Source of the DNA: Asticcacaulis solisilvae
GTDB taxonomy: Bacteria; Pseudomonadota; Alphaproteobacteria; Caulobacterales; Caulobacteraceae
NCBI RefSeq assembly: GCF_017875235.1
Contig: NZ_JAGGMI010000001.1
Span: forward strand, 1 to 64,000
Length of the DNA: 64,000 nt
Direction of reading: 5' to 3'
Shown piece after piece: positions 24,079-42,753 of the stretch (the first letter of the stretch is position 1; each line of letters starts with the position of its first letter). The notes under the pieces were generated by a model, which worked only from the letters and a program-made list of their open reading frames with translations, did not search any database and had not been told where the DNA came from. A program made the position numbers and the translations under genes.

Positions 24079-26730
24079 ATGATCGGCGATAAGGTGAGTG
24101 GGGATAGTGTGCTGGGCCGGCGACGCAGTCTGGCCACCTTGATAAAGTTGGGCTGTGTTGATGAAAGGGTAACGGAAGAGTTACTTCCCAATGGCGTACC
24201 TGTTGCTGATGAAGATGTACTGTGGGACTACAAAGAAACTTTACCTGTCCAAAAAGCAAATCCGACCCAAGAAGAAAAGTTGGATTATGCATATAAGATG
24301 GGAGAAATTGCGAAAGATGTAGTTGCGTTTTACAACAGTTACGGCGGATATTTAGTAGTTGGAATTCGCGACAACGACTATTCAATTTGTGGGTTCAACG
24401 ATGAATTCGATGTAAATGATCTCTGCAAGAAAATTCAAGGGGCAACTCGCGAAACAATTGATGCAAAGTTTCGAATAGTGGATGGCTCTGGCCAAGCCTA
24501 CGGAAGGCGTATCGGCATACTGTATATACCGGAGAGGCCTAGGGACAGAGATCCAGTCCAGTTTCTCAAAGATGCTCCCGCTAATGCTCATAGTCGACGC
24601 GCTTACTTCGCAAACGACATTTATATGCGATCTCGGGAGGAGTGTCGCTCGGCCACTACGTCCGCAGACTTCGCGTTCCTTTTCAATCGGGACCGCTTTG
24701 GCCTCGCATCTGTTGCGATTGAAAGCAGTTATATCGAGAACAATTTACCAGCAAAAGATCCTAATCTTATCGAATTTGTTGGCAGAGATCGCCAATTAGA
24801 CGATCTTTGGCGATGGTTTACAGATCGTTACACGGCGGTCAAGCTTCTATCTGGATCAGGGGGAGTCGGCAAGACGTCTATTGCTTGGACTTTCTGCGAC
24901 GCAGTTTCGCGCAACCCTCCCAGTGGTTTAGAAAAGGTAGTTTGGCTAACAGCCAAGAAAAAGACTTATGCCGCGTTACTTGGACAATACATTGATATAG
25001 GCCACACCCATTTCTCAGATCTTACCAGTCTGTTAAAAGTTTTTCTTGGCGAGCTTGGCGTACCGGATGAACAAATTCAAGAAGATGCTTCAAGAGAAGA
25101 ATTAATAGAAGAATGCATCGATACGGTCAAAATGTTGCCTTGCCTATTAGTAGTTGACGACGTTGACTCCCTGCCAACAGAGGAACAGTACGACGTATTT
25201 CGTACGATCTCGATGATTTTTGACCGAGTGATTGCTGGAGGCGTCACGCGCGCCCGTGCGTTGCTCACTGCGCGTCTAAACCTTGGAGCTGCGCCAGGTC
25301 AGTTGATGCAAATAAATGGTTTGCCGCTCGAGGACTTCAGCGAGTACGCACTAAGGTCTGCTGATGCGATTAATGCACCTTTGCCGTCTGGAGCGGCGAA
25401 GCAGAGAGAAATTAAGCGTTTGCACGAGGCTAGTAACGGCTCGCCACTCTTTGCCGCAGCAATTCTTCGCCTCGTCGCCCGGGGAGAATCGCTGTCGCGC
25501 GCCATCAATCAGTATAGAGGCGCGGAAGGCGAAGAAGTCCGTAGGTTCGCGTTTGAACGCGAGCTAGACAGCTTAACTGACAATCAGCTTCGGTTACTGT
25601 TTGCGTCTACGCAATTGCGGCATTGCTCTATCGCACAACTCGTCGAAGCCACACACGGCAACAGAACGCTGGTTCGCGACGATATCGCCGTGCTGCGAAA
25701 CTACCATCTAATGTCACTAGGTGCTCCGACAGAAGGGTTCGTTCGGGATGAGCCTAGCATCTCGGTTCCAGCTGAAATAGCGTCAATGACCGATATTATT
25801 CGGAAGAAGATTTCCGATCCTAATAGGATCGAAACCAATTGCGCCAAGATGAATCGTGCCGCCGAGAATGGAGACCATGATACCTCGAAGATGTTTCAAA
25901 GGGTGGTACAATATTGGGCGGACGAGGATTTCGCACTAGCTGTTGAAGCAGCTGAGTATGCGTCAAAGAAAGTTCCTACAAACCCAGACGTATGGTGCCT
26001 GCTCGGTCGCGCATTGCTGATGGGCCCCAGTCCGTCGGCACGTAAGGCTGACGCGGCGCTCCGTAAGGCGCAGGAGTTAGGATCAGAGCGTCCCGAACTG
26101 ATCCCACTACGGTTGCAAGCAAAGGAATTGATCGGCGATTGGATGGGGGTGGTGCACCTTCTAGAAGGCGAAACCAAGCTAGATGCCCGTAATACGTTGG
26201 CCTTGGGCCGTGCCTATCAAGCACTTGGCGATGATCAGGCAAAATCTAGAAGTTGGGCTGATGCTGAGAGCTACTATCTTCGCGGAGCAACCCTAATTCA
26301 GGACGCCTTCGTAAATCACCGAGCTCACGGCGCTGTTGAATTATTGAAGGCGTTAAAAATTGATCTCACCGTTGCGTTCGTTGAGGCCGCATCGCACAAA
26401 ATTCAACGCGATGACGATAAAATAGAAATTTGGGATGCATCAGAGAAAGCCTGGCAATTTGAAGTCCATCACCGCAGCACTGTGATGTTGGGTGTGCAGG
26501 CCGCATTGGACTGGTCTTCAGCGCTTTTTCGGCGGCAACAATTTGATCGGTCCACATTAAACAAGCTTAGTCAGCTCGCGCGATCAATGGGGTCCTTTTC
26601 TCGAAACATAGACGTAAGGCATCCGAGCTGGCAAATTGTATCAGACCGCGTCACGCAGGCAGCCATACAACTATCAAAGAGGAGCCGCGAATATGAATTA
26701 CAATTGGGGCGCTCGCTACATAAAGGCTAG
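24079..26730 (+). CDS. AlbA_2 (Schlafen-like)-STAND NTPase with TPR-like C-terminus, putative defence protein
   Basis: 883 residues. Residues about 45-190 form an AlbA_2/Schlafen-type domain (WDYKETLP, IAKDVVAFYNSYGGYLVVGI). The middle is a STAND/NB-ARC-like NTPase with Walker A GSGGVGKT (259-266), Walker B LLVVDDVDS (356-364), an arginine-rich ARALLTAR sensor and GSPLFAAAIL in the winged-helix region. The C-terminal ~280 residues are helical repeats (LGRALLMGPSPSARKADAAL, LALGRAYQALGDDQAKSRSW). This is the sensor-switch-effector layout of bacterial NLR-like antiphage proteins: repeats recognise a trigger, the NTPase oligomerises, and the AlbA_2 domain (a nuclease or nucleic-acid binder in some Schlafens) acts. 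Codon use is clearly AT-richer than the core genes. Acts alone; no partner gene on its strand. Confidence 0.75.
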   Translation: MIGDKVSGDSVLGRRRSLATLIKLGCVDERVTEELLPNGVPVADEDVLWDYKETLPVQKANPTQEEKLDYAYKMGEIAKDVVAFYNSYGGYLVVGIRDNDYSICGFNDEFDVNDLCKKIQGATRETIDAKFRIVDGSGQAYGRRIGILYIPERPRDRDPVQFLKDAPANAHSRRAYFANDIYMRSREECRSATTSADFAFLFNRDRFGLASVAIESSYIENNLPAKDPNLIEFVGRDRQLDDLWRWFTDRYTAVKLLSGSGGVGKTSIAWTFCDAVSRNPPSGLEKVVWLTAKKKTYAALLGQYIDIGHTHFSDLTSLLKVFLGELGVPDEQIQEDASREELIEECIDTVKMLPCLLVVDDVDSLPTEEQYDVFRTISMIFDRVIAGGVTRARALLTARLNLGAAPGQLMQINGLPLEDFSEYALRSADAINAPLPSGAAKQREIKRLHEASNGSPLFAAAILRLVARGESLSRAINQYRGAEGEEVRRFAFERELDSLTDNQLRLLFASTQLRHCSIAQLVEATHGNRTLVRDDIAVLRNYHLMSLGAPTEGFVRDEPSISVPAEIASMTDIIRKKISDPNRIETNCAKMNRAAENGDHDTSKMFQRVVQYWADEDFALAVEAAEYASKKVPTNPDVWCLLGRALLMGPSPSARKADAALRKAQELGSERPELIPLRLQAKELIGDWMGVVHLLEGETKLDARNTLALGRAYQALGDDQAKSRSWADAESYYLRGATLIQDAFVNHRAHGAVELLKALKIDLTVAFVEAASHKIQRDDDKIEIWDASEKAWQFEVHHRSTVMLGVQAALDWSSALFRRQQFDRSTLNKLSQLARSMGSFSRNIDVRHPSWQIVSDRVTQAAIQLSKRSREYELQLGRSLHKG

Positions 26731-26889: not shown

Positions 26890-27726
26890 TCACGTCGGCG
26901 GCAACTCTGTTACAGTCGCCATCGCCGCAATGTAACCTATTGCTACTTCATTACTATGAATACCCCTGTATAGTGCCGTCCGCCAGCCATTACAACCTTC
27001 GGTATCCTCACAAAAAGTCAGAAGTGTGCCGAGCCAGGCGCTCGCCATCTCGGATGTTACTGCTGTCACCGCAGGGTTCGCCTTTCGGATAAGACGAGGC
27101 AGCGCTTTCCATTGAGTTCGCATTTCGATGTGAAACGGCTCTTTCAGAGTATTGGCAAGATGAAACGTAACTATCGACAACACGTCATCTGCCAAAGCCG
27201 CAGCTGGCACGGCGCGAAAAGTCGCTGCTGCAAAAGGTGGCTGAACTTCGACCTGCCACAATACGTCGTTAGCAAATTCGTCGTAGTAAGGGTGTATAAA
27301 GCGCTCACCTTCTGTGACGCCCTTCACCACACTCCCCTTCGCGCCCGTGTTGCAGTGCGAGCAAGCTGGCACGAGGTTTGCGATCATTATGCAGAACTCA
27401 CCGTAGGCGTCCTTGGGCAGGTAGTGATCGACAGTACTAGTCGTTTTTGACCCGCATACGGGACAGCATGGTAAATCCTCCATGCGGCGGATATTCGCAA
27501 TTGGTTCCCGCTGAGCGCGGGCCTTGTAAAGTTTGGCCTGATCGTCCGTGATCGCCGGATCGAACACTGCAGGTGCGATTTTCCAAGGGTCGCCGTTGTT
27601 GTAGCGATATGCCTTGTAGGCGGTGACCCAAACATCTTTGTGCGGCGACCATTTTGGGTGGCTAGTCAGAACGTCAAGCCTATGATCATCCCCGTCGGCT
27701 TCAGGTGGCAAACCAATGAAAATCAT
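26890..27726 (-). CDS. HNH endonuclease, PtuB-like
   Basis: 278 residues. The HNH/zinc core is CCPVCGSKTTSTVDHYLPK, then NLVPACSHCNTGAKG: zinc Cys88/Cys91 and Cys122/Cys125, catalytic Asp100-His101, Asn126 and Lys130. Helical N- and C-terminal parts flank it. The gene overlaps the upstream ATPase gene by four bases on the minus strand. An ABC-type ATPase plus HNH nuclease pair is the Septu (PtuA-PtuB) arrangement. It could also be a related ATPase-HNH system, since no reference comparison was possible. Expected to cleave nucleic acid when the ATPase partner is released or activated. Confidence 0.78.
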   Translation of the reverse strand: MIFIGLPPEADGDDHRLDVLTSHPKWSPHKDVWVTAYKAYRYNNGDPWKIAPAVFDPAITDDQAKLYKARAQREPIANIRRMEDLPCCPVCGSKTTSTVDHYLPKDAYGEFCIMIANLVPACSHCNTGAKGSVVKGVTEGERFIHPYYDEFANDVLWQVEVQPPFAAATFRAVPAAALADDVLSIVTFHLANTLKEPFHIEMRTQWKALPRLIRKANPAVTAVTSEMASAWLGTLLTFCEDTEGCNGWRTALYRGIHSNEVAIGYIAAMATVTELPPT

Positions 27727-29417
27727 TGGGCAGAGCCCTCGCCGGCCGCGAGCAAAGCCGCGATGAAGGAGAGGGTTTCAGGATTTAGCTCGTTGGCAAA
27801 TTCTTCAAGAACATTTTCGATCGTTGTGCCCACCGGCAATGCCCTTACCCATGCAGCAATAGCATGTTCGTACCGATGTGTTCTCATGCTATCACCGAAC
27901 ACGAACTGAGATATTGAATCGACGCTGGCGCCGAACGTCTGCATACGCGGTCTGTCAACAACGGCCTCCCTTTCCACCAATGTCAGGTGTCGGACCCGTT
28001 CCCGCGATGCCTCTCGGACGACGTAACTCGAATGGGTGGCGATTATAGCAACAGACGAAGTCAGCGTCAGTAGCTCCTGAAGTTGCGTCATAAAATCCGA
28101 TATAAAGTTGGGATGCAGATGCGTTTCAGGCTCGTCGAACAACAGCAGGCTGTTGAGCTCAATCGCCGAGCACGCCTGAACGGCAAACCGAAGCATAGTC
28201 ACTTCACCGCTGCTCAACTGGCGAGAGCTAAGATCTGGATTCAAGAAAATTACATCTTGTTCCCAATCCAACTCACGTATTACGGCCAGGTTTCGCTGCT
28301 CGTTTGACCGACGGGCAAACTGGAAATAGCGGTGGCCATTGATGTTCACTGATCTGTGCAATAGCTCGGGTTTGCCCTGCTCGGGTGGCTTTAGCGGAAG
28401 ATAAATAGCTCCCCAAAGCCCTAGCGGCTCCAAAACGGCTTCCAAGATATGAAAACGATGGCCGACATCGTTCACGTAAAGGTCGCCGCCTCGGTAACAT
28501 GCGGCTAGTGCCATAAGCAAAGAGTTCCCACTTTCCAGTTGTGCGGCAGTTAAGCCGAAAAACTGGTAATCGATCCCTTCCCATGGAGGTATCGATTGGG
28601 GGTAAGCATCGGACGCAACTGATGAGAAAACCATCACACGGCTTACCGGCGGGTATGGATTGAGGACGACATTATCGCCATCGTCTCTGCCCTTCTCGGT
28701 GATTGCATGAACGATTGAGGCCAGAAGTTTCGTCTTGCCGGCGCCGTTCCTGCCGATCAGGACTGCAGCCCTGTCCTTAAAAAGCTGACCTGAGGTGAAG
28801 TCAAAATCGACCTCATACGGGTTGTCGGCGCATGGCAGTTTGGCCGACACTGTAAAATTGCTAATGGTCTGGTCTGCGGGAGGGAAGGGCTCTGGCCTAA
28901 TGTACCGGGCGCCTCTACGGAAAGACATGTAGGCCTCATCCTGTCGCAAAACCCCTTCATGGAATGCCTCAGAATGGAGAAGAGAAAGTCGGAGCTCGTC
29001 TGTTTTCTCGATATCAAGAAGGGCAGCGTCGCCTAGACGGCGAAGTGCGAACAAAGCTTGGGCGTAGCCGAGGACGTCAACAAAATCCCGATAGCTGAAG
29101 ACATCAGGGAACAACGACACAAAATTAGCCTCCACTTGGGCGGCTTCGACTACATTCCCACGCACATCGAACAAAGCGGTTAGAATATTTTCTGTTCTTG
29201 GCGCCTCCTGGAACATGACTCGAGTATGTTCTTCGAAAATAGTTTCGTTTCCGACGATTACGAGCAATTTGGCAAGCGTATGGTTCCCGAAGTCATTATG
29301 GGTGCTATGCACCGGCACGATATAAACAGCAGGCGCTATGTTGGCTTGTTGACGCGCTACAACGACAGTGCGTGCAAAAAACACGTCTATAGGTTCAGCA
29401 CCCGGAGCGTGCGGCAT
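27723..29417 (-). CDS. ABC/SMC-like AAA ATPase, PtuA-like
   Basis: 564 residues. Walker A is GRNGAGKT (222-229), the ABC signature LSSGE (401-405), Walker B LLLFDEPETHLHP (424-436), and the switch histidine is in VAIIATHSSYVV. The ~200 residues before the Walker A are helical and unassigned, longer than in a minimal ATPase. The C-terminal ~100 residues after the H-loop contain no TOPRIM motif, so this is not an OLD nuclease. Together with the downstream HNH gene (four-base overlap) it resembles Septu PtuAB. The pair is convergent with the STAND gene and divergent from the sigma module. Confidence 0.78.
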   Translation of the reverse strand: MPHAPGAEPIDVFFARTVVVARQQANIAPAVYIVPVHSTHNDFGNHTLAKLLVIVGNETIFEEHTRVMFQEAPRTENILTALFDVRGNVVEAAQVEANFVSLFPDVFSYRDFVDVLGYAQALFALRRLGDAALLDIEKTDELRLSLLHSEAFHEGVLRQDEAYMSFRRGARYIRPEPFPPADQTISNFTVSAKLPCADNPYEVDFDFTSGQLFKDRAAVLIGRNGAGKTKLLASIVHAITEKGRDDGDNVVLNPYPPVSRVMVFSSVASDAYPQSIPPWEGIDYQFFGLTAAQLESGNSLLMALAACYRGGDLYVNDVGHRFHILEAVLEPLGLWGAIYLPLKPPEQGKPELLHRSVNINGHRYFQFARRSNEQRNLAVIRELDWEQDVIFLNPDLSSRQLSSGEVTMLRFAVQACSAIELNSLLLFDEPETHLHPNFISDFMTQLQELLTLTSSVAIIATHSSYVVREASRERVRHLTLVEREAVVDRPRMQTFGASVDSISQFVFGDSMRTHRYEHAIAAWVRALPVGTTIENVLEEFANELNPETLSFIAALLAAGEGSAQ

Positions 29418-29812
29418 TGTTATATCCCTGCTTGTTGATGAAACTTATTTTACAAATGATTGATCTGTCAAAATAATTTGCTCAATCTATGCACGCTATT
29501 TGGTAACCGCAATGGTTGCCGTACTGATGAACTAAGTTGATCCCGTAATTGAATAATCGCGGCTACCTGGAGATGGATAGGCGCTGGGGTATAGGGCATG
29601 AGCAGAGGTTTCCCGTCCAAGTGCCTCTTCCATCGTTCAGGGAAATCATCAACTGCTCGCGATAACCGAATATTTCCAACGCGCCCTATGATTGTGAAAA
29701 TATAGCCTATGGTAGACCGGACAAATCATGCAAAAAAAATTTCAACGAGCTTCCGGTTTTTTAAGGCCGGTTTCGCTGCACATTTGAACCGCGTTAGTTT
29801 GGGCGTTGAGGA
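29418..29812. other. Divergent control region, no gene seen
   Basis: 395 bases between the divergent ATPase and sigma-like genes. AT-rich, with an A-run near 29734-29741. It should hold promoters for both operons. I see no repeat, terminator or small gene that I can support. Confidence 0.4.
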
Positions 29813-29818
29813 ATGACT

Positions 29819-30472
29819 ATGGGCAAAAAGGAAGATGGGCCGGACCCTGGCGATGTTAGTGGCTGGCTACGGGTCATCGAAAGCAAAATGCTTTCGAGGA
29901 TTCAAGGCCGCCACCTCGTGGCAGCCGCCCAAAAAATAGGGCCGTCCGGGGATCGACTTATCATCAACTCGCTTATGAACGAGATATCCGACAGAATGAT
30001 GCGCATTCTGCGCAAGTACATTGGCCGCAACCATCGCAATGAAGGTCGTGACATGATCGAGGACACGCATGGAAAGCTGATCGAAGCGGTACTCCGGTCT
30101 GATTCCGCCGACGGGATGGCAATGCGGACTGCGTTCGTGGCAACAGTGAAGTTTCGCGCTGCCGATGCCATCAGATCCGAAAGTCTTCACACAGATCGGT
30201 ATCAGTCTTCAGAAGAAGAAATGCCGGTGGCCGGCAGCCCTGGTAAACTTTCGGTCCTTGAAGAGGAGCGCGCTCACGTGGAAAGCGTGCTGAACCGGAT
30301 CGCTGACCCACGAAAACGTCTCGCCTTCCGTCTTCATATGGATGGTGTCCCGCGCAATTCTAAGAAAGTTGAGTCTATTGCTTCGGCACTAGGTGTGAGC
30401 GCGAAAACCGCAGAGACCTGGATCAAAGAGACAGAACAAGAAATCAAAATAATCCTTGGAGTTAACCCATGA
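29819..30472 (+). CDS. Sigma-70-like factor heading an ImmA/IrrE-UvrD module
   Basis: 217 residues from the second ATG, which sits six bases after GAGGA; the first ATG at 29813 is too close to it. Region 2-like: GRDMIEDTHGKLIEAVLRSD, then FVATVKFRAADAIRSESLHT. Region 4-like helix-turn-helix: KKVESIASALGVSAKTAETW. Spacing between regions fits a small ECF-like factor, with a longer linker. The stop overlaps the next start (ATGA). It may direct transcription of this module or act as a plain regulator; the target promoters were not identified. Confidence 0.65.
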   Translation: MGKKEDGPDPGDVSGWLRVIESKMLSRIQGRHLVAAAQKIGPSGDRLIINSLMNEISDRMMRILRKYIGRNHRNEGRDMIEDTHGKLIEAVLRSDSADGMAMRTAFVATVKFRAADAIRSESLHTDRYQSSEEEMPVAGSPGKLSVLEEERAHVESVLNRIADPRKRLAFRLHMDGVPRNSKKVESIASALGVSAKTAETWIKETEQEIKIILGVNP

Positions 30473-31086
30473 CGGACCAATCGAATGTCTCCAAGAGGGA
30501 CGAGGTCCTGTTCGCATTCCACCGGGACTGCGATACCCCGACCATCGACCAGATCATCGAGTGGACTCAGCGCTATCCCGAGTTTGCCGACGATATCCGT
30601 GCACACGCCGCGATCATGCATGATTGGGCGGCGAATGATGAAGCGGAGGAGGAAACAGTCGATGAACTCTTGATGACCCGCGCGCGCAGCCGAGCGCTCA
30701 ACGCGATTTACAGTGCCCAAGCGGCTGAAAAAACCGACGGCCAAAGCGTGGGCGAAACAACATTCGATCAACTGCTATCGGCCGTGGGTTTGGACACTCG
30801 GCAACTGGCCCGCGCCATTGATATCGGCCGTGATGTGCTTTCTGACCTTTTTCGCGGTCGTACCCGGGGGCCTATTGGACCGCGATTGGTCACGGCTCTG
30901 CTCGACAAGCTTCAGGCGACTCAAGATCAGTTCGAAAAAGCCCTCGCCTACGCTCTAAATCATCCTTCAATGGGACACGCCAGCTCTTCACGGCAGCCCA
31001 CTGTCATTCAATCTACTTTTGAGGAAAGTGTTCGGCGAAGTAACATGCCCCCGGAGCGCAAATCCTATTGGCTTGAAGAGGATTAA
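30469..31086 (+). CDS. Regulator/antitoxin-like protein paired with an ImmA/IrrE protease
   Basis: 205 residues. The N-terminal part (TIDQIIEWTQRYPEFADDIR, AHAAIMHDW) resembles the leader of regulators that accompany ImmA proteases. The middle (LDTRQLARAIDIGRDVLSDL) looks like an XRE-type helix-turn-helix. The tail FEESVRRSNMPPERKSYWLE is a short conserved-looking helix that could be the protease-recognised part. It sits between the sigma-like gene (ATGA overlap) and the protease-helicase gene (two bases apart). In the ImmA-ImmR paradigm such a repressor is cleaved upon DNA damage; here that is inference. Confidence 0.55.
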   Translation: MTDQSNVSKRDEVLFAFHRDCDTPTIDQIIEWTQRYPEFADDIRAHAAIMHDWAANDEAEEETVDELLMTRARSRALNAIYSAQAAEKTDGQSVGETTFDQLLSAVGLDTRQLARAIDIGRDVLSDLFRGRTRGPIGPRLVTALLDKLQATQDQFEKALAYALNHPSMGHASSSRQPTVIQSTFEESVRRSNMPPERKSYWLEED

Positions 31087-31088
31087 GC

Positions 31089-34000
31089 ATGGACGCCTGG
31101 CGCAATATCCGTTTGAAAGCCCGGGATTGCCATCTGAAAGCCCTTGCGACCGCCGAAGGTGATCGCCGAGGTCGCGCACTCGTCAGTGCCGCTTTGACGA
31201 ATGGTGATTGGGAGCTGCGTTATTGCCAACAGGGCGAGGTCTTTGGCCCCGGTGTCCGCGGCTCCTTCGAGCGGGCGGACGGCCTCGTATACATCGTAGC
31301 GGGTCAGGACCCTAAAGACGAAGTGGTAGTGCTTGCGCACGAAATTGGGCACTCAGAACTCCATCACGATCCGAGTAATGAAGTCCAGAACATTCAAGCC
31401 CAACTCGGCGGTGACACCATCGACAGCGGGGCTGGCGTTGTCGAGGGTTATTCACCTCGCGAACGCAAGGAAGTTCAGGCTGACATCTTCGCGGGTGAGT
31501 TTCTATGCCCAGCGGACTGGTTGCGTGCCGAGATAGTTGAAAACAGGCGGCGACCGTCGGAGATTGCAGAAGAGTTGGGCCTCCCTTTCGGTTTGGTTCT
31601 CAACCAAGCCGTCCGCGCTCTTTTGTTGCCGCCGCTTCGCGCGCCAGATGCTCAAGCGCTCGGGCCGGTAGTGGAACTTGACGAGAGCCAGCACCAAGCA
31701 GCGACTTGGAGCGGCGGCCCGCTGTTAGTGGATGCGGGACCTGGAACGGGCAAAACGCGTACACTGGTTCACCGCATCGGCTATGTGCTCAGTCAGGGAG
31801 CGTTATCAGGGTCAATCTTAGCGTTGACCTTTTCGAACAAAGCCGCAGAAGAAATGCGGGAACGCCTGTCGCATTCACACGAGGATGCGGCGATCGAGAT
31901 GTGGGTCGGGACTTTCCATGCTTTCGGCCTGGAAATGGTGACGAAATGGCCTGGTCGACTGGGGCGCACAACTGACGTAAAAATTTTGGATCAGACTGGC
32001 CAGCTTGCGCTCTTGGAAGCCAATCTCGCCCGGCTACCTCTGCATTACTACCAGAACCTCTTCGAGCCCGCGTACGAGCTTGTCTACGTCCTTCAGGCGA
32101 TTTCTCGTTGTAAGGATGAGGCGATCACGCCCGAAGAATATTTGGCGGAAGCGAGAGCTGCGCTTGCTCGGGCCGGATCATCTGAGGACGTCGAGGCCGC
32201 TGAAAGGGCCATCGAGGTTGGCGAGATTTACCAAGTCTACCAAGACCTATTGCTCCAAGCTGACGCTGTAGATTTTGGCGATTTGGTTATGATGCCGATG
32301 CAGTTGATGGCGGAGCACGAGGACATCCGAACGGAGTATCAGGAACGCTTCCAGCATATATTGGTTGATGAATATCAGGACGTGAACTTCGCCAGTGCCC
32401 GCCTCCTGCAACTGCTGGCCGGCGGGTGTCAGGACGTGTGGGTGGTGGGGGATCAACGCCAGTCCATCTATCGTTTTCGAGGAGCATCACCTGCAAATGT
32501 TGAGCGCTTCCAGACCGATTTCAGTGGCTCGAAGCTATCCCTAACCAGCAATTATCGTTCTGGCGGGCCCGTTGTACGGGCGTTTTCGCAATTCTCGCGG
32601 CATATGGCTGCGGACCCCGCCGCCGCCGCAAACTGGGCCGCTTATCGAGGTGAAGTTGGAGAGGTGACTTTAACCGTGGCGGGCACCGTCGCGGAAGAGG
32701 CTGCCGCGATTCGCGATAAGATTGAGGCCCTGCGCGCGAGCGGGATCAGCTATCGTGATCAGGTTATACTAGCCCGTAGTCACCTAACGCTTTCACGCAT
32801 TACCGATGTGCTGGAGCAGTTGGGAGTGCCGCTGCTTTACCTCGGAGACCTGTTCGAACGCGATGATGTTCGCGATCTTCTCTCCGTTGTCGCCATCGAT
32901 GCGGAATTTGGCGGCATCGGACTTGTGCGGGTCGCACAGCTTCCCGAATACGGCGCCACGAAAGGCGATGCGCTCGTCGTAATTCGCTGGTCGCAAGAGC
33001 AAAACATCACCATCTTCGATGCTCTTGGCCGCCTAAGTCAAATTGACGGGCTGAGCGATCAGGGAAAAATTGGGCTCGGAAAGCTGGCAGAACACTTTGC
33101 AGGTATGGGACCAGCAACGTCACCATGGGCATTGCTCACGACCTGGCTATTCGAACGTAGCAACTATCTTCGCCCACTGCTCGAAGCCAATGACGCACAG
33201 TCACAACAGAAGCTGATTGCGATCTATCAGTTACTCAAAGTTTGCAGCGAACATTACGACCTTGGGGGGCACGCCGATCTGCGAGACCCTGGCCGCAAAG
33301 CTTTCCTTGAGCGTATCCGCCGGATCGAAGCACTGAACCAGGACAGTCGCTATCGGGCGGTCGTCTCCGAGGCCGCGGATTTCGACGCCGTCCGGGTGAT
33401 GACGATCCATGGCAGCAAGGGCTTGGAATTCCGAGGCGTGCACCTTCCGGCGATTGCGACTCGCTATATGCCTTCCAACCGGCAATGGGTACGATGCCCT
33501 CCGCCGGCAACGCTCGGAAAGCTCATGATGCAAAAGGGCGATCATGATGCGGAGGAGGAATGCTTATTCTTCGTCGGCCTTTCGCGCGCTCGGGACCACC
33601 TTTGTCTTACCAGGGCGGAGCGTTATACCCAGACCAATGCCAGCGCATCGAAATTTCTCGAAACCGTGTCTCGGCATGTGCAGGTGAAGCGCTTTAACGG
33701 TCAATCGCCAATGCTCAAGGCGGCGCCCACGTGGACCGCACTGCCCCCCAGGGAGGTCTACGAAGAGCGTGAACTCGATGTCTATCTGAGGTGCCCCGCC
33801 CGATATCGCTATGAAGTGTTGGACGGGTTGCGCGGCGGCCGCGATTCATCTGCATATTTGCGGTTCCATCGATGCGTCCATCGCACCATGGGATGGCTCG
33901 AACAACAGGCACAGGATGGAAAAGTGGTTTCTGCAGATAGGGCAAAGCAGGAACTTGCCGAGCAATGGGAGAAACATGGCCCTAAGGGCCATGGGTTCGA

Positions 34001-34454
34001 AGCCTATTACCGGTCAGCGGCTGAGGCGATGGTCGTGTCAATCGCACGTCTAATAGCTTCAGATATCGGGACTTACGATAGAGAGCCCTGGTCGGTGCCG
34101 GTCGGTAGTAGAACCATCTCCTACACACCAGATCGGGTAGTTATCGCGCCTGACGGGCGTGTACGCATCCAGCGGGTTCGCACAGGCCGCAAAACGAAAT
34201 CCGAGCCTGAGAACCGGGTATACGCGCTGATCAGGCGGGGCGCTTTGTTGCGCTATCCGGGCCGTTCGATTTCCGTTGAAGCCTATTACCCCGCTACGGA
34301 CGAATCGGTCCAGATGGTTCCCAAGAACGACGAAAAGGCGCTCAAGGAATATGCCGAGGCCATAAGTGCTATCGAGCGCGGCGAATTTCCGGTCGAACGG
34401 TCCGATGCGCGCCAATGCCCCAACTGCCAGTGCTATTTCATCTGCGGGGCATAG
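31089..34454 (+). CDS. ImmA/IrrE metalloprotease-UvrD helicase fusion with AddB/Cas4-like C-terminus
   Basis: 1121 residues. Residues 1-200: an ImmA/IrrE protease with zinc motif VVLAHEIGHSELHHD (HEIGH 84-88) and a later acidic ligand in ERKEVQADIFAGEFLCPADW. Residues about 200-870: an SF1 UvrD/Rep helicase with Walker A GPGTGKT (217-223), motif II VDEYQD (426-431), motif III GDQRQSIYRFRGA, motif V TIHGSKGLEF and motif VI LSRARDHL. The C-terminal 220 residues have the four-cysteine Fe-S layout of AddB/Cas4 nucleases (Cys902 in YLRCPARY; Cys1110, Cys1113 and Cys1119 at the end). The D-x-K catalytic stretch, however, reads RIQRVRTGRK instead of a VDYKTG-like motif. The nuclease may therefore be inactive. 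A natural fusion of damage-sensing protease and helicase. Confidence 0.85.
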   Translation: MDAWRNIRLKARDCHLKALATAEGDRRGRALVSAALTNGDWELRYCQQGEVFGPGVRGSFERADGLVYIVAGQDPKDEVVVLAHEIGHSELHHDPSNEVQNIQAQLGGDTIDSGAGVVEGYSPRERKEVQADIFAGEFLCPADWLRAEIVENRRRPSEIAEELGLPFGLVLNQAVRALLLPPLRAPDAQALGPVVELDESQHQAATWSGGPLLVDAGPGTGKTRTLVHRIGYVLSQGALSGSILALTFSNKAAEEMRERLSHSHEDAAIEMWVGTFHAFGLEMVTKWPGRLGRTTDVKILDQTGQLALLEANLARLPLHYYQNLFEPAYELVYVLQAISRCKDEAITPEEYLAEARAALARAGSSEDVEAAERAIEVGEIYQVYQDLLLQADAVDFGDLVMMPMQLMAEHEDIRTEYQERFQHILVDEYQDVNFASARLLQLLAGGCQDVWVVGDQRQSIYRFRGASPANVERFQTDFSGSKLSLTSNYRSGGPVVRAFSQFSRHMAADPAAAANWAAYRGEVGEVTLTVAGTVAEEAAAIRDKIEALRASGISYRDQVILARSHLTLSRITDVLEQLGVPLLYLGDLFERDDVRDLLSVVAIDAEFGGIGLVRVAQLPEYGATKGDALVVIRWSQEQNITIFDALGRLSQIDGLSDQGKIGLGKLAEHFAGMGPATSPWALLTTWLFERSNYLRPLLEANDAQSQQKLIAIYQLLKVCSEHYDLGGHADLRDPGRKAFLERIRRIEALNQDSRYRAVVSEAADFDAVRVMTIHGSKGLEFRGVHLPAIATRYMPSNRQWVRCPPPATLGKLMMQKGDHDAEEECLFFVGLSRARDHLCLTRAERYTQTNASASKFLETVSRHVQVKRFNGQSPMLKAAPTWTALPPREVYEERELDVYLRCPARYRYEVLDGLRGGRDSSAYLRFHRCVHRTMGWLEQQAQDGKVVSADRAKQELAEQWEKHGPKGHGFEAYYRSAAEAMVVSIARLIASDIGTYDREPWSVPVGSRTISYTPDRVVIAPDGRVRIQRVRTGRKTKSEPENRVYALIRRGALLRYPGRSISVEAYYPATDESVQMVPKNDEKALKEYAEAISAIERGEFPVERSDARQCPNCQCYFICGA

Positions 34455-34540
34455 CCTTTCCAATCTCACTGCTTCCGGTTTTTCCCCGCTGACTTCGCTC
34501 CTTTCTCAGAACGCCATTTGGGCGTCAGAAAGGTTCGATC

Positions 34541-35029
34541 ATGACCACCATCGTTTTCATCCAGGTCCACGAACGCGAAAACCTCATCGAGGCGGAGCTG
34601 CCAAAGGACCCGACCCACGCGCACTTGCACAGCCTGATCACCGCCCTAGGCATCGAGGTCGACCAGCACACCTTCATCTTCATCGATGAGGAGGAAGAGC
34701 CCCTGGTGCATAAGCACCACGAGCCGCTGCCTCCCGTCAAGCGCGGCTGCCGCATCCACGTCAGCAAGTGCCGCAAGATCAAGGCCGTCGTGCACTTCCT
34801 CGACCAGACCGAAGACCGCACTTTCGCCCCCGGCACGCGGGTCAAGAAGGTCAAGGCTTGGGCGGTGAAGCAGTTCAAGCTGACGCACCACGACGCTGCC
34901 GAACATGTCCTGCAATTGTGCGGCTCGACCGACCGGCCGGCGACGGACACACCGCTGCACGAGTTGACCAAGGCTCCTGTCTGCTCGGTCTGCTTCGACT
35001 TCGTCCCTGAGAAGCGTGTAGAGGGCTAA
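34541..35029 (+). CDS. bilA: Tandem ubiquitin-like modifier, BilA-like (ISG15-like)
   Basis: 162 residues. Two ubiquitin-like beta-grasp units follow each other. Unit 1 (about 1-80) runs from TTIVFIQVHERENLIEAEL to RIHVSKCRK. Unit 2 (about 81-160) runs from KAVVHFLDQTEDRTFAPGTR to VCFDFVPEK. The chain ends KRVEG with a C-terminal glycine exposed directly, so no processing would be needed before activation. Such two-domain modifiers beside E1, E2 and JAB genes define the Bil antiphage systems. The Shine-Dalgarno AGAAAGG lies nine bases before the ATG. The E2 gene starts immediately after the stop (TAAATG). Confidence 0.85.
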   Translation: MTTIVFIQVHERENLIEAELPKDPTHAHLHSLITALGIEVDQHTFIFIDEEEEPLVHKHHEPLPPVKRGCRIHVSKCRKIKAVVHFLDQTEDRTFAPGTRVKKVKAWAVKQFKLTHHDAAEHVLQLCGSTDRPATDTPLHELTKAPVCSVCFDFVPEKRVEG

Positions 35030-35515
35030 ATGAACATCGCGGTTTCCCCCGACCGACTGATCCTCGAACAAGATCTCGCCGCACCGGATTTCCGGTGCGG
35101 CGAGATCGAAGGCCGCTGGAGGCATGTCTCGACCACCTGGCCGCACACAATTATCGCCGTTGGCGCAGATGCACGCTCAGGTGCACCCGACGAGTACGGC
35201 TTCCGCTTTGAATGTTGCGGCTATCGTCAGAACCCGGTGACGGCGCAGCCCTGGGACATCCCGGGCAACAGGCCTCTTCCGTTCGCCCAATGGCCGACCG
35301 GCAAAACTATCCTTCCGTCGATTTTTCGGCCGGACTGGAAGGGCGGCCAATGCCTGTACCTGCCTTGCGATCGCTTCTCGATCGAAGGCCATGACGACTG
35401 GCGCAATCAACACCCTAGTCGGCTCTGGCAGCCGCGCCGCGGTATCATTTGTTATTTGGAGCAACTCTATGACCTTTTCCATCAAGGCGACTATAAGGGC
35501 GTTCGTGGCGCCTAA
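35030..35515 (+). CDS. bilB: E2-like ubiquitin-conjugating enzyme, BilB-like
   Basis: 161 residues. Shared features with prokaryotic E2 proteins are a beta-sheet core ([20 protein letters not shown]), then [20 protein letters not shown], and [19 protein letters not shown]. The candidate catalytic cysteines are Cys108 and Cys113, the latter in LPCDR; I cannot decide between them. A C-terminal helix ([18 protein letters not shown]) follows. It lies directly between the ubiquitin-like gene and the JAB gene, whose start overlaps its end by 11 bases. It should carry the modifier as a thioester and pass it to targets without a visible E3. Confidence 0.78.
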
Positions 35516-35990
35516 TCATCGCTTGAGCTGCCCTCGGCGGCTTTGGGACACGGTGACCGACGAGCTGGATCGCCGAGGGGAGCGCACCCACGAGGCGGGC
35601 GCGTTTCTTCTTGGTCATGTCCAAGGCGTACGGCGCCAAATCACCGACGCGGTCTTCTATGACGACCTCGACTCGCAGGCCTATTCGACAGGCGTCTGCG
35701 TCTTGCACGCACCGGCCTTCGCCAAGCTCTGGACGTTATGCCGGGAACGTAAGCTGACAGTTGTAGCTGATGTGCATACGCACGGTGGCAGGGCCATCCA
35801 GAGCGAGGCTGATCGCACCAACCCAATGGTGGCACGTGCCGGCCATGTCGGCTTGATCCTGCCGGATTTTGCAGTTGCGCCCATCAATTGGGACAAGGTC
35901 GGCATCTATGAGTACCGAGGCGACCACGAATGGTACGAACGCTCGCAACGCATTCACCACGGCTATTTTTACACCGGCTTTTGGAGCTGA
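35505..35990 (+). CDS. bilD: JAB/MPN deubiquitinase-like metalloprotease, BilD-like
   Basis: 161 residues from the GTG at 35505, chosen because TAAGGG lies six bases upstream and the overlap with the E2 gene is only 11 bases. An ATG at 35469 is an alternative. The JAMM zinc site is complete: Glu in [10 protein letters not shown], His-x-His in [10 protein letters not shown] and Ser/Asp in [10 protein letters not shown]. It should remove or mature the ubiquitin-like protein. As that protein already ends in glycine, removal from targets is the likelier job. It ends one base before the E1 gene. Confidence 0.85.
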
Positions 35991-35991
35991 C

Positions 35992-37368
35992 ATGACAGAA
36001 CCGCTACACACTTCGTTGCACCGCACCGCTAAATATTTCATGGACAGCGGCCGTGTGCGTACAACTGAAGAAGCCATGGATCTTCTGAAATCCTTTGGCC
36101 TCACCATCGTTTGCGGCCCGGAAATCAGGGCGAGCCCAGCCGCCCAGATCGCCTTGCTCACCTTGGTGAACCTCGCACGCCGGACCTTCTTGGCGGGTGT
36201 GGAAATCGTCGGATTGGAAGACGTACCCGTCCTAACGCAGCTTTCCTTGGAATTGGATCTCGTTGCGGCAGTCTCCAAGCTAGGGGGACGTGCGGTACAG
36301 AAGGCCCGCCCCGCTTGGCCTTTCGCGATTATCGGTTCAGCCGACATGCAGCCGACAGAATTACCTGCTTGGCGCATGACTTGGCAGGGCTGGCGAGCCG
36401 GCGTGGTGCCAATCCGCGATGCGTGGGCTATGACCGACGACGAATCGATGCCACTGGCGCCAGCCCTTGCCGCGTCGATCTGTGCCGCCGAGGTATTCTC
36501 CTTCCATGCCGGTGATCGGTCCCTTTCCGGCCGGCGGGCTTCTGGCTTGTCAATTTGGCGACCAGGCTCCGACTGGATGGCGCCGGACGATACGGAGGCT
36601 ACCCTTTCGTTCTTGCCTTCGCGACTTTGGCTGATCGGCCTTGGAAATCTGGGCCAGGCGTATTCCTGGCTGCTGGCCTGCCTTCCCTATCAAAATGGCG
36701 GGCTCGAACTTGTACTTCAAGACTTTGACCGGCTTGCGCTTTCTAATGACAGTACGTCTGTCCTGACGAACGTTGATGTGCTGGGTCAGATGAAAACCCG
36801 TTGGGCCGCAGAATGGTTGGAAGCGCGCGGCATCAGAACTTATCTTGAGGAGCGTCGGTTTACCTCTTCCACGAAGCGGCAAACCGACGAGCCGGCTGTG
36901 GCGCTATGCGGGGTAGATAATGCGCTTGCGCGTTCCGTCCTGGAAGATGCCGGGTTCGACCTCATCATAGAGTCTGGGCTGGGCGCCGGACCGCAGAGTT
37001 TCCGCAATTTCGCGATGCATACGTTTCCCGGTCCGCGACGTGCGACGGAGCTTTGGCCTACAACCATCTCTGCAGAAGCGCCGGAGGTGTCACACATGCC
37101 AGCATACACAGATCTGAAGGACAAGGGTGTTGACGCCTGCGGACTTGCACAACTTGCGTCGAGAACTGTAGGGGTTCCGTTCGTAGGGCTGATCGCGGGT
37201 GCATTTGTTATATCGGAACTTCTCCGGCGCTTAAACGGTGGAACGGCATATGATGTAATCGCAGGCTCGATTACCTGCCTCGATGATCTCGATGTTTGCG
37301 CTGGAGCGTCACAAATCTACGACTTCGGATTCAGCCCTGTTTCACCAGCAAGCCTGGAGTGTGCCTAG
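35992..37368 (+). CDS. bilC: E1-like ThiF-family activating enzyme, BilC-like
   Basis: 458 residues. The nucleotide-binding motif is LWLIGLGNLGQAYSWLL, followed by the metal/adenylation motif LQDFDRLALSNDSTSV and VALCGVDNALARSVLEDAGF. A conserved segment DACGLAQLASRTVGVPFVG contains the likely thioester cysteine. The ~200 residues before the ThiF fold (RTAKYFMDSGRVRTTEEAMD and onwards) form an N-terminal extension, probably for E2 or modifier binding. It adenylates the modifier's C-terminal glycine. It is the last gene of the operon. Function-based letters are used here; the gene order is modifier, E2, protease, E1. Confidence 0.85.
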   Translation: MTEPLHTSLHRTAKYFMDSGRVRTTEEAMDLLKSFGLTIVCGPEIRASPAAQIALLTLVNLARRTFLAGVEIVGLEDVPVLTQLSLELDLVAAVSKLGGRAVQKARPAWPFAIIGSADMQPTELPAWRMTWQGWRAGVVPIRDAWAMTDDESMPLAPALAASICAAEVFSFHAGDRSLSGRRASGLSIWRPGSDWMAPDDTEATLSFLPSRLWLIGLGNLGQAYSWLLACLPYQNGGLELVLQDFDRLALSNDSTSVLTNVDVLGQMKTRWAAEWLEARGIRTYLEERRFTSSTKRQTDEPAVALCGVDNALARSVLEDAGFDLIIESGLGAGPQSFRNFAMHTFPGPRRATELWPTTISAEAPEVSHMPAYTDLKDKGVDACGLAQLASRTVGVPFVGLIAGAFVISELLRRLNGGTAYDVIAGSITCLDDLDVCAGASQIYDFGFSPVSPASLECA

Positions 37369-37508: not shown

Positions 37509-37712
37509 TCAGTCCAGCAAGTCACCTAACGTCACACCCAATGCCCTGGAGAGCTTCTCGACAATAGTGACAGTCGGGTTCCTGGCGCCGCGCTCCAGAT
37601 CGCTAACATATGTGCGGTGAATCTCTGCCCGAAAAGCAAACTCCTCCTGCGACCAGCCTTTTTGCTGGCGCAACCGGCGAAGATTTTGAGCAAGGCGATC
37701 AATGACATCCAC
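37509..37712 (-). CDS. XRE-family helix-turn-helix regulator
   Basis: 67 residues, a single Cro/CI domain: DRLAQNLRRLRQQKGWSQEE, then FRAEIHRTYVSDLERGARNP and VEKLSRALGVTLGDLLD. It belongs to the solitary short XRE regulators common on genomic islands and in restriction-modification control. It converges on the conjugation operon and is divergent to the lipoprotein gene. It may regulate island genes; no operator is recognised. Confidence 0.85.
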   Translation of the reverse strand: MDVIDRLAQNLRRLRQQKGWSQEEFAFRAEIHRTYVSDLERGARNPTVTIVEKLSRALGVTLGDLLD

Positions 37713-39579: not shown

Positions 39580-41325
39580 ATGCCTGCTCCCAACAATCCC
39601 ACCTTGACGCTCGCACAGGTTCGGGACGCCCTCTCAACCCGTAACGACTTGAAAAGCTCCGACCGCACGACGATGGTGTCGGCCATCAATCGCTTTGCCG
39701 AAATCGCCAGCCTGTCGCCCTCGCAGATCCTGGCAGACCCCGGCGTTATCCGTGATCTGAAAGAAACCGCGAACTGGCAGCTGGCCGGACGGAAGAAGCA
39801 TGACGGCGTCCCTAACGAAGTCGGCATCACCAAAGCGAGCTGGGCAAACATCACCTCTCTGGTTACCAAGGCAATGAAGCTATCCGGGATCGCGGTCGAC
39901 CGTCGCCGGCGGAACTTCAAGCCGGCAGATGCGTGGCAGCCACTTCTCGATAAGACCTCGAAGAATGATCGCCACGCCCTCAATCGCTTCGCAGGGTGGT
40001 GCACCGCATTCCAAATCTCGCCGGATCAGGTGTCGCAGGAAACCTTCGTCAACTACCTCGATTTCCTGCTGGGCCAGACCACGCAGAAAAACCCGAAAGA
40101 GCGCTGGCACTGCGCACGCCGCGCCTGGAACCGGCTCGCCGACAGGGCCCCGTCCAATCTCCCGATGATTGAGGACGTTACTGAAAAGCCCTGGACGGGC
40201 ATGCCCTGGAGCGACTTCCCCGAGAGCCTCCAAGAGGAAATCAAGCAGTACAGCGACTTCGTTCTCGGCAACGGCATCGTTGATGATGACCCAGATAACT
40301 TCGATGAACTGTTCTGGCGCAAGACCATCAAGCCTGTAACGCTCAAGGGCTATCTCAACAATTTGCGTTGGTATGCCTCCCGCCGTGTGGAGACGGGCGT
40401 GCCGATAGAGTCCTTCTGCTCCTTGGCGGTCCTGATCGATCCCATCCCCCTTGCGGACTACATCAAGCCGCAGCTCGATAACGCGAATGGTGACGAGAAG
40501 GTTCTGCTCAAATTGCAGACATTGATGATCCCCGTCCTGAATGTCGCCAGGTACCTCAAAGTTCCCGAGGGAGTGTCCAAACGGCTCAAAATGATCTTCA
40601 AGAGGGTGCGTCACCGGCCCGACAGGCCGGGGGAGCGAACGCGTAAGCGACTGACGCAGTTCAAATCCGACATCGCCTGCGCCGCTCTGATCAATCTCCC
40701 GTTCCAGGTGGCTGCTCGGCTGCCCCGCGGCGACACTCCGACAGTCAGCGAAGCTAGGGAAATGCAATTGGCTTGCGCCACGACCGTGCTGCTTTACCTC
40801 AACTTCCGCATCAAGAACGTGGCCGAGCTCAGCTTGGAGAAGCATATCCAGCGCCCCATTGGGGGGCAGGCTGGACCGTGGCGCATCGAGGTCGAACGTA
40901 AGGACGTGAAGAATAAGCAGATCATTGGCGGCTATCTGCCGGCAGAAGCCAGTGCCTTGTTAGACCGCTATGTCAAAGAATTCCGCCCGTTGCTCATCAA
41001 GGCCTCAACGGATGCCCTGTTCGTTTCCCAGAACGGCGCGAGCAAAGGTGCATCAGCTTTGTCCAAGCAAGTCCGGCGCTTCATCAAGCGTGAGACGGGT
41101 TTGGCCGTCAACTCGCACCTCTTCCGGTCGTTGGCGGGTGAGCTGTATCTGAGAGAAAACCCCGGCGACTATGAAACGGTTCGCCAGATGCTGTTCCATG
41201 CGAGCGTCGAGACGACGCGCCGGCACTATTCCGGACACGATGCCGAACGCAACCTGATGCGCTATGCCGACGTCATCGAAGGCATCCGCAAGCCTGGCCT
41301 CATGCCTCAGGAGGATATCCTGTGA
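39580..41325 (+). CDS. Large tyrosine recombinase (island integrase 1)
   Basis: 581 residues. A long N-terminal region (about 1-380) is of DNA-binding type. The catalytic domain has an Arg in LNFRIKNVAELSL, the Lys hairpin in WRIEVERKDVKNKQIIGGYL, then HLFRSLAGELYL (H-x-x-R), MLFHASVETTRRHYSGH (second His and Tyr nucleophile). This size and the adjoining second recombinase fit the paired-integrase islands where two or three recombinases act together. The stop overlaps the next gene by four bases (GTGA). No accessory gene lies between. Confidence 0.85.
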   Translation: MPAPNNPTLTLAQVRDALSTRNDLKSSDRTTMVSAINRFAEIASLSPSQILADPGVIRDLKETANWQLAGRKKHDGVPNEVGITKASWANITSLVTKAMKLSGIAVDRRRRNFKPADAWQPLLDKTSKNDRHALNRFAGWCTAFQISPDQVSQETFVNYLDFLLGQTTQKNPKERWHCARRAWNRLADRAPSNLPMIEDVTEKPWTGMPWSDFPESLQEEIKQYSDFVLGNGIVDDDPDNFDELFWRKTIKPVTLKGYLNNLRWYASRRVETGVPIESFCSLAVLIDPIPLADYIKPQLDNANGDEKVLLKLQTLMIPVLNVARYLKVPEGVSKRLKMIFKRVRHRPDRPGERTRKRLTQFKSDIACAALINLPFQVAARLPRGDTPTVSEAREMQLACATTVLLYLNFRIKNVAELSLEKHIQRPIGGQAGPWRIEVERKDVKNKQIIGGYLPAEASALLDRYVKEFRPLLIKASTDALFVSQNGASKGASALSKQVRRFIKRETGLAVNSHLFRSLAGELYLRENPGDYETVRQMLFHASVETTRRHYSGHDAERNLMRYADVIEGIRKPGLMPQEDIL

Positions 41326-42383: not shown

Positions 42384-42528
42384 AATTAATTGCACGCGAT
42401 TTGCGTCAGGCGGCCTGGCTCGCCCCTGTGCTTCGTGAAACGTCCGCTCCCCTGACTGGCTCAACCGGTGTACCGGGGAGACACCGCCCCTCTGGTTGTC
42501 TCGCTCGCCCGGTTCTATACAATCGGGG

Positions 42529-42750
42529 ATGGGACAACCGCTCAGAAAGCCAGTTCAGAAAGCGCAGGGACACGAAGCATCCGCTTCCGTTGCTCCGCCT
42601 CAGGCTGTCTCAGAGCATGGTCAATCCGGCACCCAACAGGCAATCATTAGTGACCTGCCAGCCCTTCTTCCGATTACGGCAGAAGAGGTTGCCCTCCTAC
42701 GCGCCTTCCTGCGTAATGAAATCCAACACATCCTGGATAGTGAGTCCTAA
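42529..42750 (+). CDS. Small protein upstream of the serine recombinase
   Basis: 73 residues from ATG at 42529. A disordered Gln/Ser-rich first half is followed by ALLPITAEEVALLRAFLRNE and IQHILDSES, one amphipathic helix. It ends three bases before the recombinase start, implying coupled expression. Family not recognised. It may be an accessory factor, and its short length keeps confidence modest. Confidence 0.45.
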   Translation: MGQPLRKPVQKAQGHEASASVAPPQAVSEHGQSGTQQAIISDLPALLPITAEEVALLRAFLRNEIQHILDSES

Positions 42751-42753
42751 ACC

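Follow-up and report, generated by a model that had tools for sequence, protein, structure and literature searches.

Gene content of the locus

The window analysed here comprises the first 64,000 nucleotides of contig NZ_JAGGMI010000001.1 of the alphaproteobacterium Asticcacaulis solisilvae. It contains three genes, which encode a sigma-like protein, an XRE-type regulator and a fusion of an ImmA/IrrE (M78) metalloprotease with a UvrD-type helicase, and which are directly followed by an operon of the bacterial ISG15-like conjugation (Bil) type. Since this trio directly precedes the operon for the ubiquitin-like (Ubl) protein and matching promoter-like sequences are found before both gene sets, the trio is probably the on-switch of a bacterial ubiquitin-like immune system.

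The sigma-like gene (29813-30472) encodes a protein of 219 amino acids; an in-frame ATG is also present at 29819, which was taken as the start in the initial annotation of this DNA. The gene for the regulator, a protein of 205 amino acids, is located at 30469-31086 and overlaps the sigma-like gene by 4 nt, and the fusion gene (31089-34454; 1121 amino acids) follows after a gap of 2 nt. All three genes lie on the plus strand, in agreement with the tight coupling proposed at the outset. The gene set described in the initial annotation is thus real; the operon directly downstream, however, had been overlooked. The bilABCD operon is complete at 34541-37368, also on the plus strand, and starts 86 nt past the end of the fusion gene. 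All four genes are matched by PADLOC: bilA (34541-35029; BilA, E 3e-50), bilB (35030-35515; BilB, E 5e-63, and DUF7665, E 5e-65), the JAB-type gene bilC (35391-35990; BilC, E 1e-65, with a Prok-JAB match of E 8e-5 below the cut-off) and the ThiF/E1-like gene bilD (35869-37368; BilD, E 2e-167, the model match beginning at residue 42). The bilC open reading frame (ORF) overlaps bilB, and the true start of bilC is probably located further inside it. We take BilA to be the ubiquitin-like protein, BilB the E2-like enzyme and BilC the deconjugase. A search of the window genome for a second copy of the fusion only returned two weaker UvrD-type matches.

The 219-amino acid protein looks like an extracytoplasmic function (ECF)-like sigma factor, in whose predicted structure both sigma DNA-binding regions, 2 and 4, are present. 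The AlphaFold2 model has a predicted local distance difference test (pLDDT) score of 89.3, and its best Foldseek match is E. coli sigmaE (1or7, probability 1.00, E 2e-3), with no Foldseek match at E≤0.001. The model superimposes on sigma region 2 (5or5) with a Z-score of 9.2 and 3.1 Å over 94 residues, and on sigma region 4 (3vfz) with a Z-score of 9.6 and 1.3 Å over 61 residues. No Pfam sigma model matched the window protein at E≤0.1; the match to the NCBIfam model TIGR02937 covers residues 53-212, and 24 of the 31 family members chosen for alignment match this model at E≤0.01.

By its predicted structure and the family alignment, the regulator consists of an N-terminal helical domain (residues 1-91), an XRE-type helix-turn-helix (HTH) domain (residues 96-165) and a conserved C-terminal tail, and the protein matches Pfam HTH_31 with an E-value of 6e-5 (23.7 bits of 27). 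In the predicted structure, residues 96-165 adopt an XRE fold, whose matches include CapH, DdrO and a protein that is presumably ImmR; the N-terminal domain of CapH (7t5u) is matched with a Z-score of 6.2 and 2.2 Å over 62 residues. These results agree with the XRE-like regulator with a conserved tail of the initial annotation. Matches in the PDB were restricted to residues 96-165, and the N-terminal domain may still have a known fold.

The fusion protein consists of three parts. The M78 metalloprotease domain (31278-31601, plus strand; residues 64-171, Peptidase_M78, E 1e-9) contains a HEIGH motif at residues 84-88 and a glutamate at position 128. It is followed by a UvrD/PcrA-type helicase core (31677-33668, plus strand; UvrD-helicase, E 3.5e-69; PcrA TIGR01073, E 1e-95), in which UvrD spans residues 197-478 and is accompanied by UvrD_C, and by an end of the PD-(D/E)XK fold (33774-34445, plus strand; PDDEXK_1, residues 896-1119), in which the catalytic D-x-K is replaced and four cysteines are kept. 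In an alignment of 54 fusions, the HExxH motif and E128 are intact in 52/52 readable rows, the Walker lysine/threonine and DE in 54/54 and the four cysteines in 53/53 readable rows; PDDEXK_1 was matched by 14 of the 14 members scanned. The nuclease motif has a different fate: position 1029 is arginine in 33/54 and position 1031 in 36/54 fusions, position 1029 is acidic in none of the 49 rows displayed for it, and position 1031 is lysine in 8. A weak profile alignment (E 0.04-0.1) with solved UvrD/REP-type helicase-nuclease chains, which we take to be AdnA, places VDLKTG (VALKTG in one chain) opposite RRVRTG. Because the D-x-K positions are mostly arginine, the end of the fusion is probably not a working nuclease, although its fold and cysteines are AddB/Cas4-like; it is probably a DNA-binding remnant. 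The four cysteines correspond to the iron-sulphur cluster cysteines of the AddB/Cas4 type. Of the architecture that had been proposed initially, the HEIGH protease, the UvrD helicase and the AddB/Cas4-like fold with four cysteines are retained, but the nuclease site is degenerate. A search of viral contigs with the fusion as a single-protein query, which reaches close relatives only, gave three pattern matches, none of which was confirmed.

Conservation of the trio and of its downstream operons

In total, 57 fusion loci were collected: the window, 15 plasmid loci, 30 loci from a genome scan, eight further genome loci and three loci found via BilD. The plasmid loci were picked from 30 listed, out of 1686 matching plasmid records overall and 87 matching at least 80% of the query. 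From the genome scan, 30 of 80 loci were kept (L023-L048, L053, L056, L058 and L064), and 50 were dropped, as their listed match lacked the protease part. Neighbouring genes were called with hidden Markov models built from the collected loci themselves.

An HTH gene is present upstream of the fusion in 56/56 loci with upstream sequence (L034 has no such sequence) and a sigma gene in 55/56; the sigma-like ORF of L032 was recognised by eye, and an insertion sequence (IS) element lies in between in L126. Downstream of the 57 fusions, 23 Bil operons and 25 Bub-type operons were found, the latter with multiubiquitin, E1 and DUF6527 genes; five loci have neither, one has an IS insertion and three end at a contig edge. 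Hence, a Bil or Bub operon follows the fusion in 48/53 usable loci, or in 45/50 if the three loci found via BilD are subtracted. The initial annotation had named beforehand a lack of conservation of the three-gene neighbourhood as a ground for its refutation and had asked whether the genes co-occur with defence genes; the order of the trio is conserved in 55-56 of 56 loci, and its usual neighbour is a Bil or Bub operon.

Hosts of the trio with a Bil or Bub operon include Alpha-, Beta- and Gammaproteobacteria, Cyanobacteriota, Acidobacteriota, Chloroflexota and Verrucomicrobiota. In the class of the window, the fusion is found in 5/385 genomes and BilD in 7/385, and in its family, the fusion occurs in 5/149 genomes, with the window genome counted in each case. 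A fusion tree built with a quick method requires five changes between the labels Bil, Bub and none, compared to 21.2 with shuffled labels; the cassette thus usually keeps to a single output, although changes of partner have occurred, and one Bil locus, L014, is nested among Bub trios.

When Bil operons are viewed from BilD, the slot of the trio can be occupied by other genes. Among the 19 BilD plasmid records inspected (of 35), 12 have a full trio, one of them carrying an IS within the sigma region, one has the sigma and HTH genes without the fusion, three have pairs annotated as HTH and ImmA/IrrE genes, one has a single XRE/M78-like gene and one has none; the remaining record is L135, which is discussed below. 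Of the seven BilD genomes of the window's class, three contain the trio, L122 and L123 have M78- or HTH-like neighbours, and the other two (L124 and L125) gave no call. In L130, L131 and L133, CapH+CapP-like pairs, identified by annotation, are located in the slot of the trio. As HTH and ImmA/IrrE pairs fill the same slot in other Bil loci, the trio is one of several alternative controllers. A survey published in 2026 reports CapW or CapH+CapP for 219 of 544 Bub operons and CapK+CapS for 59, and the passage concerned names no controller for the remaining ones (PMC13373217); the CapH+CapP count of that survey may include some trios.

Two observations concern other genes near the trio. In an Armatimonadaceae locus without Bil or Bub operon, the trio is followed by a protein with a WGR-PARP_reg-PARP arrangement (L064:12341-13654; PARP, E 9e-35), which is possibly another output of the same controller. 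On six plasmids (L009, L011, L012, L014, L021 and L126), genes annotated as SbcD or "DNA repair exonuclease" are found together with an ATPase gene near the trio and the ubiquitin operon.

A promoter-like element precedes both gene sets

In the window, a promoter-like element is located before the sigma gene (29750-29777, plus strand) and before bilA (34472-34499, plus strand). Both copies read CTTCCGGTTTTT-N10-TTCGCT, with both boxes alike and identical spacing. When the sequence before the sigma gene is compared with the copy in the gap, the best 30-mer match covers 22/30 positions (p_ctl 0.017). The pattern CTTCCGGTTTTTN{8,12}TTCGCT has exactly two sites in the 5.0-Mb window genome and none in the reversed control; as it was built from these two sites themselves, the message of the scan is the absence of other sites.

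Across the gaps between the fusion and the Ubl gene, the element has the consensus CTTTCCGGTT-N13-GCGATTAA and mostly starts 0-39 nt past the fusion stop codon; if it is read as a -35/-10 promoter, the spacing is about 16 bp. The set comprised 47 gaps, which were reduced to 44 by removal of near-duplicates; L016 (IS after the fusion), L043, L045 and L058 (contig ends), L026, L032, L046, L047 and L064 (no Bil or Bub operon) were left out, as was L121, although Bub follows there. With a threshold of our own choice of at least 12 bits, the element is found in 41 of the 44 non-redundant gaps. The mean score is 18.7, each site's own contribution included, compared to 9.1 (maximum 9.8) in 15 dinucleotide-shuffled gap sets, whose runs started from the same eye-read consensus as the real discovery.

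Upstream of the sigma gene, a leave-one-out position weight matrix (PWM) found the element with p<0.05 in 21/55 loci and with p<0.01 in 10. The 21 loci are made up of 15/23 Bil loci, 5/24 Bub loci and 1/8 others. In a PWM-free test, the best ungapped 30-mer shared by the sigma upstream region and the gap of the same locus was compared with about 55 segments taken at random from the locus; here, 18/23 Bil loci reached p_ctl<0.05, where about one is expected. Two loci with the element of the window clade (L008 and L024) were missed by the PWM, as their -35 differs, and were recovered by the PWM-free test, and L009, L017 and L027 were significant by PWM but not in the PWM-free test. Of the trios without Bil or Bub operon, four were tested with controls, and in none of them does the gap significantly resemble the sequence before the sigma gene (p 0.34 to 1.0); the trio of L064 gave no significant match to the element. 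For L032, the comparison was made without a control.

The -10 box varies by clade and agrees within loci: TTCGCT is found in the window clade, CGACT in L127 and L128, and CGATTA also occurs. Among the 44 sites, the ACCGG form of the -35 box is restricted to Bub loci and the Bil locus L014. The Cupriavidus locus L129, which has the sigma and HTH genes without the fusion, carries the element with 21.9 bits, and upstream of its sigma gene a sequence resembling the element can be seen. Of seven testable Bil operons without a sigma match in the fetched stretch, six (L122, L123 and L130-L133) have no element before bilA (≤8.5 bits); the seventh is L135, which is discussed below. The conserved promoter-like element lends independent support to a sigma-based circuit.

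The leader of the ubiquitin-like gene

Between the element and bilA, a putative leader hairpin is located at 34500-34533 (plus strand); its 3' arm and the Shine-Dalgarno region of bilA overlap. The leaders between the -10 box and the Ubl ATG were compared for 42 of the 44 loci (the start of L126 is unclear, and L117 has no Ubl model match). Their median folding z is -1.9, with 28/42 below -1.5, compared to a median z of -0.15 in a control stretch before the fusion gene, and in many leaders the Shine-Dalgarno region lies partly within the outer 3' arm, with at least four of six nucleotides paired in 22/42. The arms covary across these leaders: the mean pairing energy is -12.5 kcal/mol with the own arm and -9.0 kcal/mol with a foreign arm, and the own arm beats the median foreign partner in 33/42 leaders. 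None of 20,000 permutations was as good (z -8.6). If the 5' arm is shuffled, the mean is -8.2, and 18/42 leaders lie below the 5th percentile. The leader of the window itself folds weakly (z -1.0).

Proposed mechanism and alternative explanations

We consider it reasonably likely that the trio serves the Bil or Bub operon next to it as a dedicated and portable controller of transcription: a helicase-protease that senses DNA would inactivate the HTH protein, so that the sigma factor could transcribe its own operon and that of the ubiquitin-like protein. In the resting cell, the XRE-type protein would keep the system silent, acting like an anti-sigma factor or as a repressor. The UvrD part and the four-cysteine end would engage damaged, single-stranded or incoming phage DNA, and the linked ImmA/IrrE protease would then cleave the XRE-type protein, by analogy with CapP-CapH and PprI-DdrO. 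In these systems, the regulators CapH (PMC13373217) and DdrO (PMC10904395) are cleaved by their partner peptidases, and the peptidases CapP (PMC13373217) and PprI (PMC10904395) are activated by single-stranded DNA. The freed ECF-like sigma factor could guide RNA polymerase to the two-box promoter before its own operon, which would create a positive feedback in most Bil loci, and the same factor would read the element before the ubiquitin-like gene, resulting in expression of the conjugation machinery. The hairpin in the leader may add a translational brake, as suggested by the covariation across loci, though weakly for the window alone. The initial annotation had described the trio as a possible damage- or phage-response module; its sigma-based circuit fits with the element, but the trio is most likely not a stand-alone module but a controller of Bil and Bub operons.

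Several observations weigh against this model. The sigma-70-like identity, which had also been part of the initial annotation, is supported by the folds of regions 2 and 4, but the TIGR02937 match (E 8e-9, 35.3 bits) is under the 42.9-bit cut-off. An anti-sigma fold was not identified in the N-terminal domain of the regulator by comparison with the PDB, in which matches were found at residues 96-165 only. The five divergent trios L026, L032, L046, L047 and L064 have neither a Bil or Bub operon nor a supported element. In the PWM-free test, the match within the own locus is significant in 0/23 Bub loci; because of this result and of the difference between Bub and Bil loci in the PWM scan, autoregulation by the element is not universal. 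When the general PWM was applied to both strands of the 64-kb window, ten sites reached at least 13 bits, and the bilA site, with 13.6 bits, is not the best of them. The stretch fetched for L135 has the element before bilA (14.8 bits, p 0.008) and no sigma gene; the element adjoins a sequence that resembles the fusion end of the near relative L010 and that reads as a remnant of the fusion. A Burkholderia plasmid with Bil-like genes, no sigma gene and no recognised bilA carries an unexplained 16.3-bit match 323 nt before an annotated gene (L134:6530). Finally, box 1 has a self-complementary core, CCGG (ACCGGT in some Bub loci), and a binding site of the XRE-type protein within this box is possible.

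The last point leads to the strongest alternative, in which the XRE-type protein would bind the element as a CapH-like repressor of the ordinary kind, with the fusion as an elaborate CapP and the sigma-like protein in an accessory or adaptor role. The XRE fold with its match to CapH, the M78 protease of the partner protein, the CapH+CapP-like pairs in the same slot of L130, L131 and L133 and the self-complementary core of box 1 would all fit with it. However, the element consists of two unlike boxes at a sigma-like spacing, the second of which does not mirror the first. Typical XRE operators do not have this form. Moreover, a sigma-like gene is present in 55/56 loci with upstream sequence, and the window protein has both sigma DNA-binding regions; overall we regard this alternative as unlikely. 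A symmetric XRE operator across the whole element was set aside as unlikely on account of the missing mirror symmetry, with the exception of the CCGG core.

Less probable still is a stand-alone defence system, a Gabija-like helicase-protease that acts on phage DNA or proteins and is merely co-located with Bil and Bub operons in defence islands. The UvrD core indeed matches GajB models, further defence-like genes as well as genes for an integrase and a tRNA are present in the window, and five trios lack a Bil or Bub operon. This reading would, however, leave the constant order and orientation and the short gap with the element in 41/44 non-redundant loci unaccounted for, and the nuclease site is degenerate. 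In addition, GajA is not among the best 25 of the 125 families matched by the neighbouring ATPase, the top one being PDC-M01A (E 6e-177). The Gabija-like reading was set aside because GajA is missing from these 25 families and the nuclease residues have been lost.

It is very improbable that the sigma-like protein functions as a decoy or anti-anti-sigma factor like PhyR and thereby releases a housekeeping or stress sigma factor, which would then read the element. The sigma-like domain of PhyR is among the weak profile matches, but the element varies together with the local genes, as in the TTCGCT form of the window clade and the CGACT form of L127 and L128, and matches within loci. The exact form of the element occurs at this locus only in the host genome, and it would therefore ill suit a general sigma factor. 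That the trio serves the conjugation system as a target or partner instead of controlling it, for instance through modification of the sigma factor or helicase by BilA, is hardly credible, as this idea has only the tight linkage in its favour, and the trio precedes the promoter element in a controller slot, in which it is swapped for CapH/CapP-like pairs elsewhere.

Comparison with known control systems

The closest counterpart of the trio is CapH+CapP, an HTH repressor and a peptidase activated by single-stranded DNA, which are found before CBASS and other immune operons (PMC13373217). Both systems place an HTH protein and an ImmA/IrrE-type protease upstream of an immune operon, as is the case for the trio in the 48/53 usable loci; the XRE fold of the trio is CapH-like, and the HExxH motif and third ligand of the M78 protease are kept in all 52 readable rows. 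In contrast to CapP, the protease of the trio is not a stand-alone protein but makes up residues 64-171 of a 1121-amino acid helicase fusion, and the trio has three genes instead of two, a larger HTH protein, and an additional sigma factor and promoter element. CapK+CapS, a kinase and a STAS repressor, likewise responds to DNA damage and controls from an upstream position, in this case before Bub operons and a small number of Bil operons (PMC13373217). No parts homologous to it were recognised in the trio, and control by phosphorylation there contrasts with the presumed combination of proteolysis and a sigma factor here.

Some ECF sigma factors are released by regulated proteolysis, and their usual partner is a membrane anti-sigma factor. 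The trio resembles these systems in the sigma regions 2 and 4 and in the element before its own gene and before the target operon; it differs in its soluble XRE-like partner, if this role is correct, and in its immune target operon. The PprI/IrrE-DdrO system of Deinococcus, unlike the trio, is not known to have a helicase fusion, a sigma factor or a link to a conjugation operon. Common to both are a metallopeptidase and an XRE-type protein, in Deinococcus a repressor, and DNA damage is the signal there (PMC10904395). The fusion shares its UvrD core, PD-(D/E)XK fold and four-cysteine cluster with AddAB/AdnAB, Cas4 and GajB, but it has an N-terminal protease and replaced nuclease residues, and no second nuclease subunit was identified at the locus. 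The Bil and Bub operons are the presumed output of the controller and separate from the trio itself.

Neighbouring genes

A divergent ATPase/HNH gene pair (26890-29417) is located directly upstream of the trio; it is PtuA-like and matches the PADLOC candidate PDC-M01 (A, E 6e-177; B, E 9e-87). A gene for a protein with Schlafen AlbA_2 and AAA_16 domains (24079-26730) adjoins these defence genes. Just past bilD, a small stand-alone HTH_3 (XRE) gene is found on the minus strand (37509-37712). A phage-type integrase gene (39580-41325) and more plus-strand ORFs up to a tRNA-Arg gene (44335-44411, minus strand) suggest that the region 39580-44411 is a tRNA-linked mobile island. In L135, the Sinorhizobium medicae ml20 plasmid, bilABCD and the element are kept, and no gene is listed where the fusion would be (L135:5976-7027).

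Implications for bacterial ubiquitin-like immunity

How bacteria silence immune systems that modify their own proteins until they are needed is an open question. The controllers CapW, CapH+CapP and CapK+CapS work through repressors (PMC13373217). No description of the trio was recognised in a literature text search, which did not extend to the primary papers on CapH/CapP, Bub and Bil. A more far-reaching interpretation, which we put forward only tentatively and with less confidence than the controller role itself, is that the trio represents an unprecedented form of immune control, in which a sigma factor held by an XRE-type protein is freed by a DNA-reading helicase with its own protease, turns on a ubiquitin-like conjugation system from a promoter reserved for the locus and is backed by a second lock, an RNA hairpin over the ribosome-binding site, with the whole cassette moving between Bil, Bub and possibly PARP-type outputs. 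If the proposed mechanism is correct, a sigma switch with a helicase-linked protease would follow a different logic, that of positive feedback and a private promoter. It would also point to the signal that activates bacterial ubiquitin-like immunity and provide a portable circuit that can be tested, and the clade-specific forms of the promoter would offer a route to further operons under the same control.

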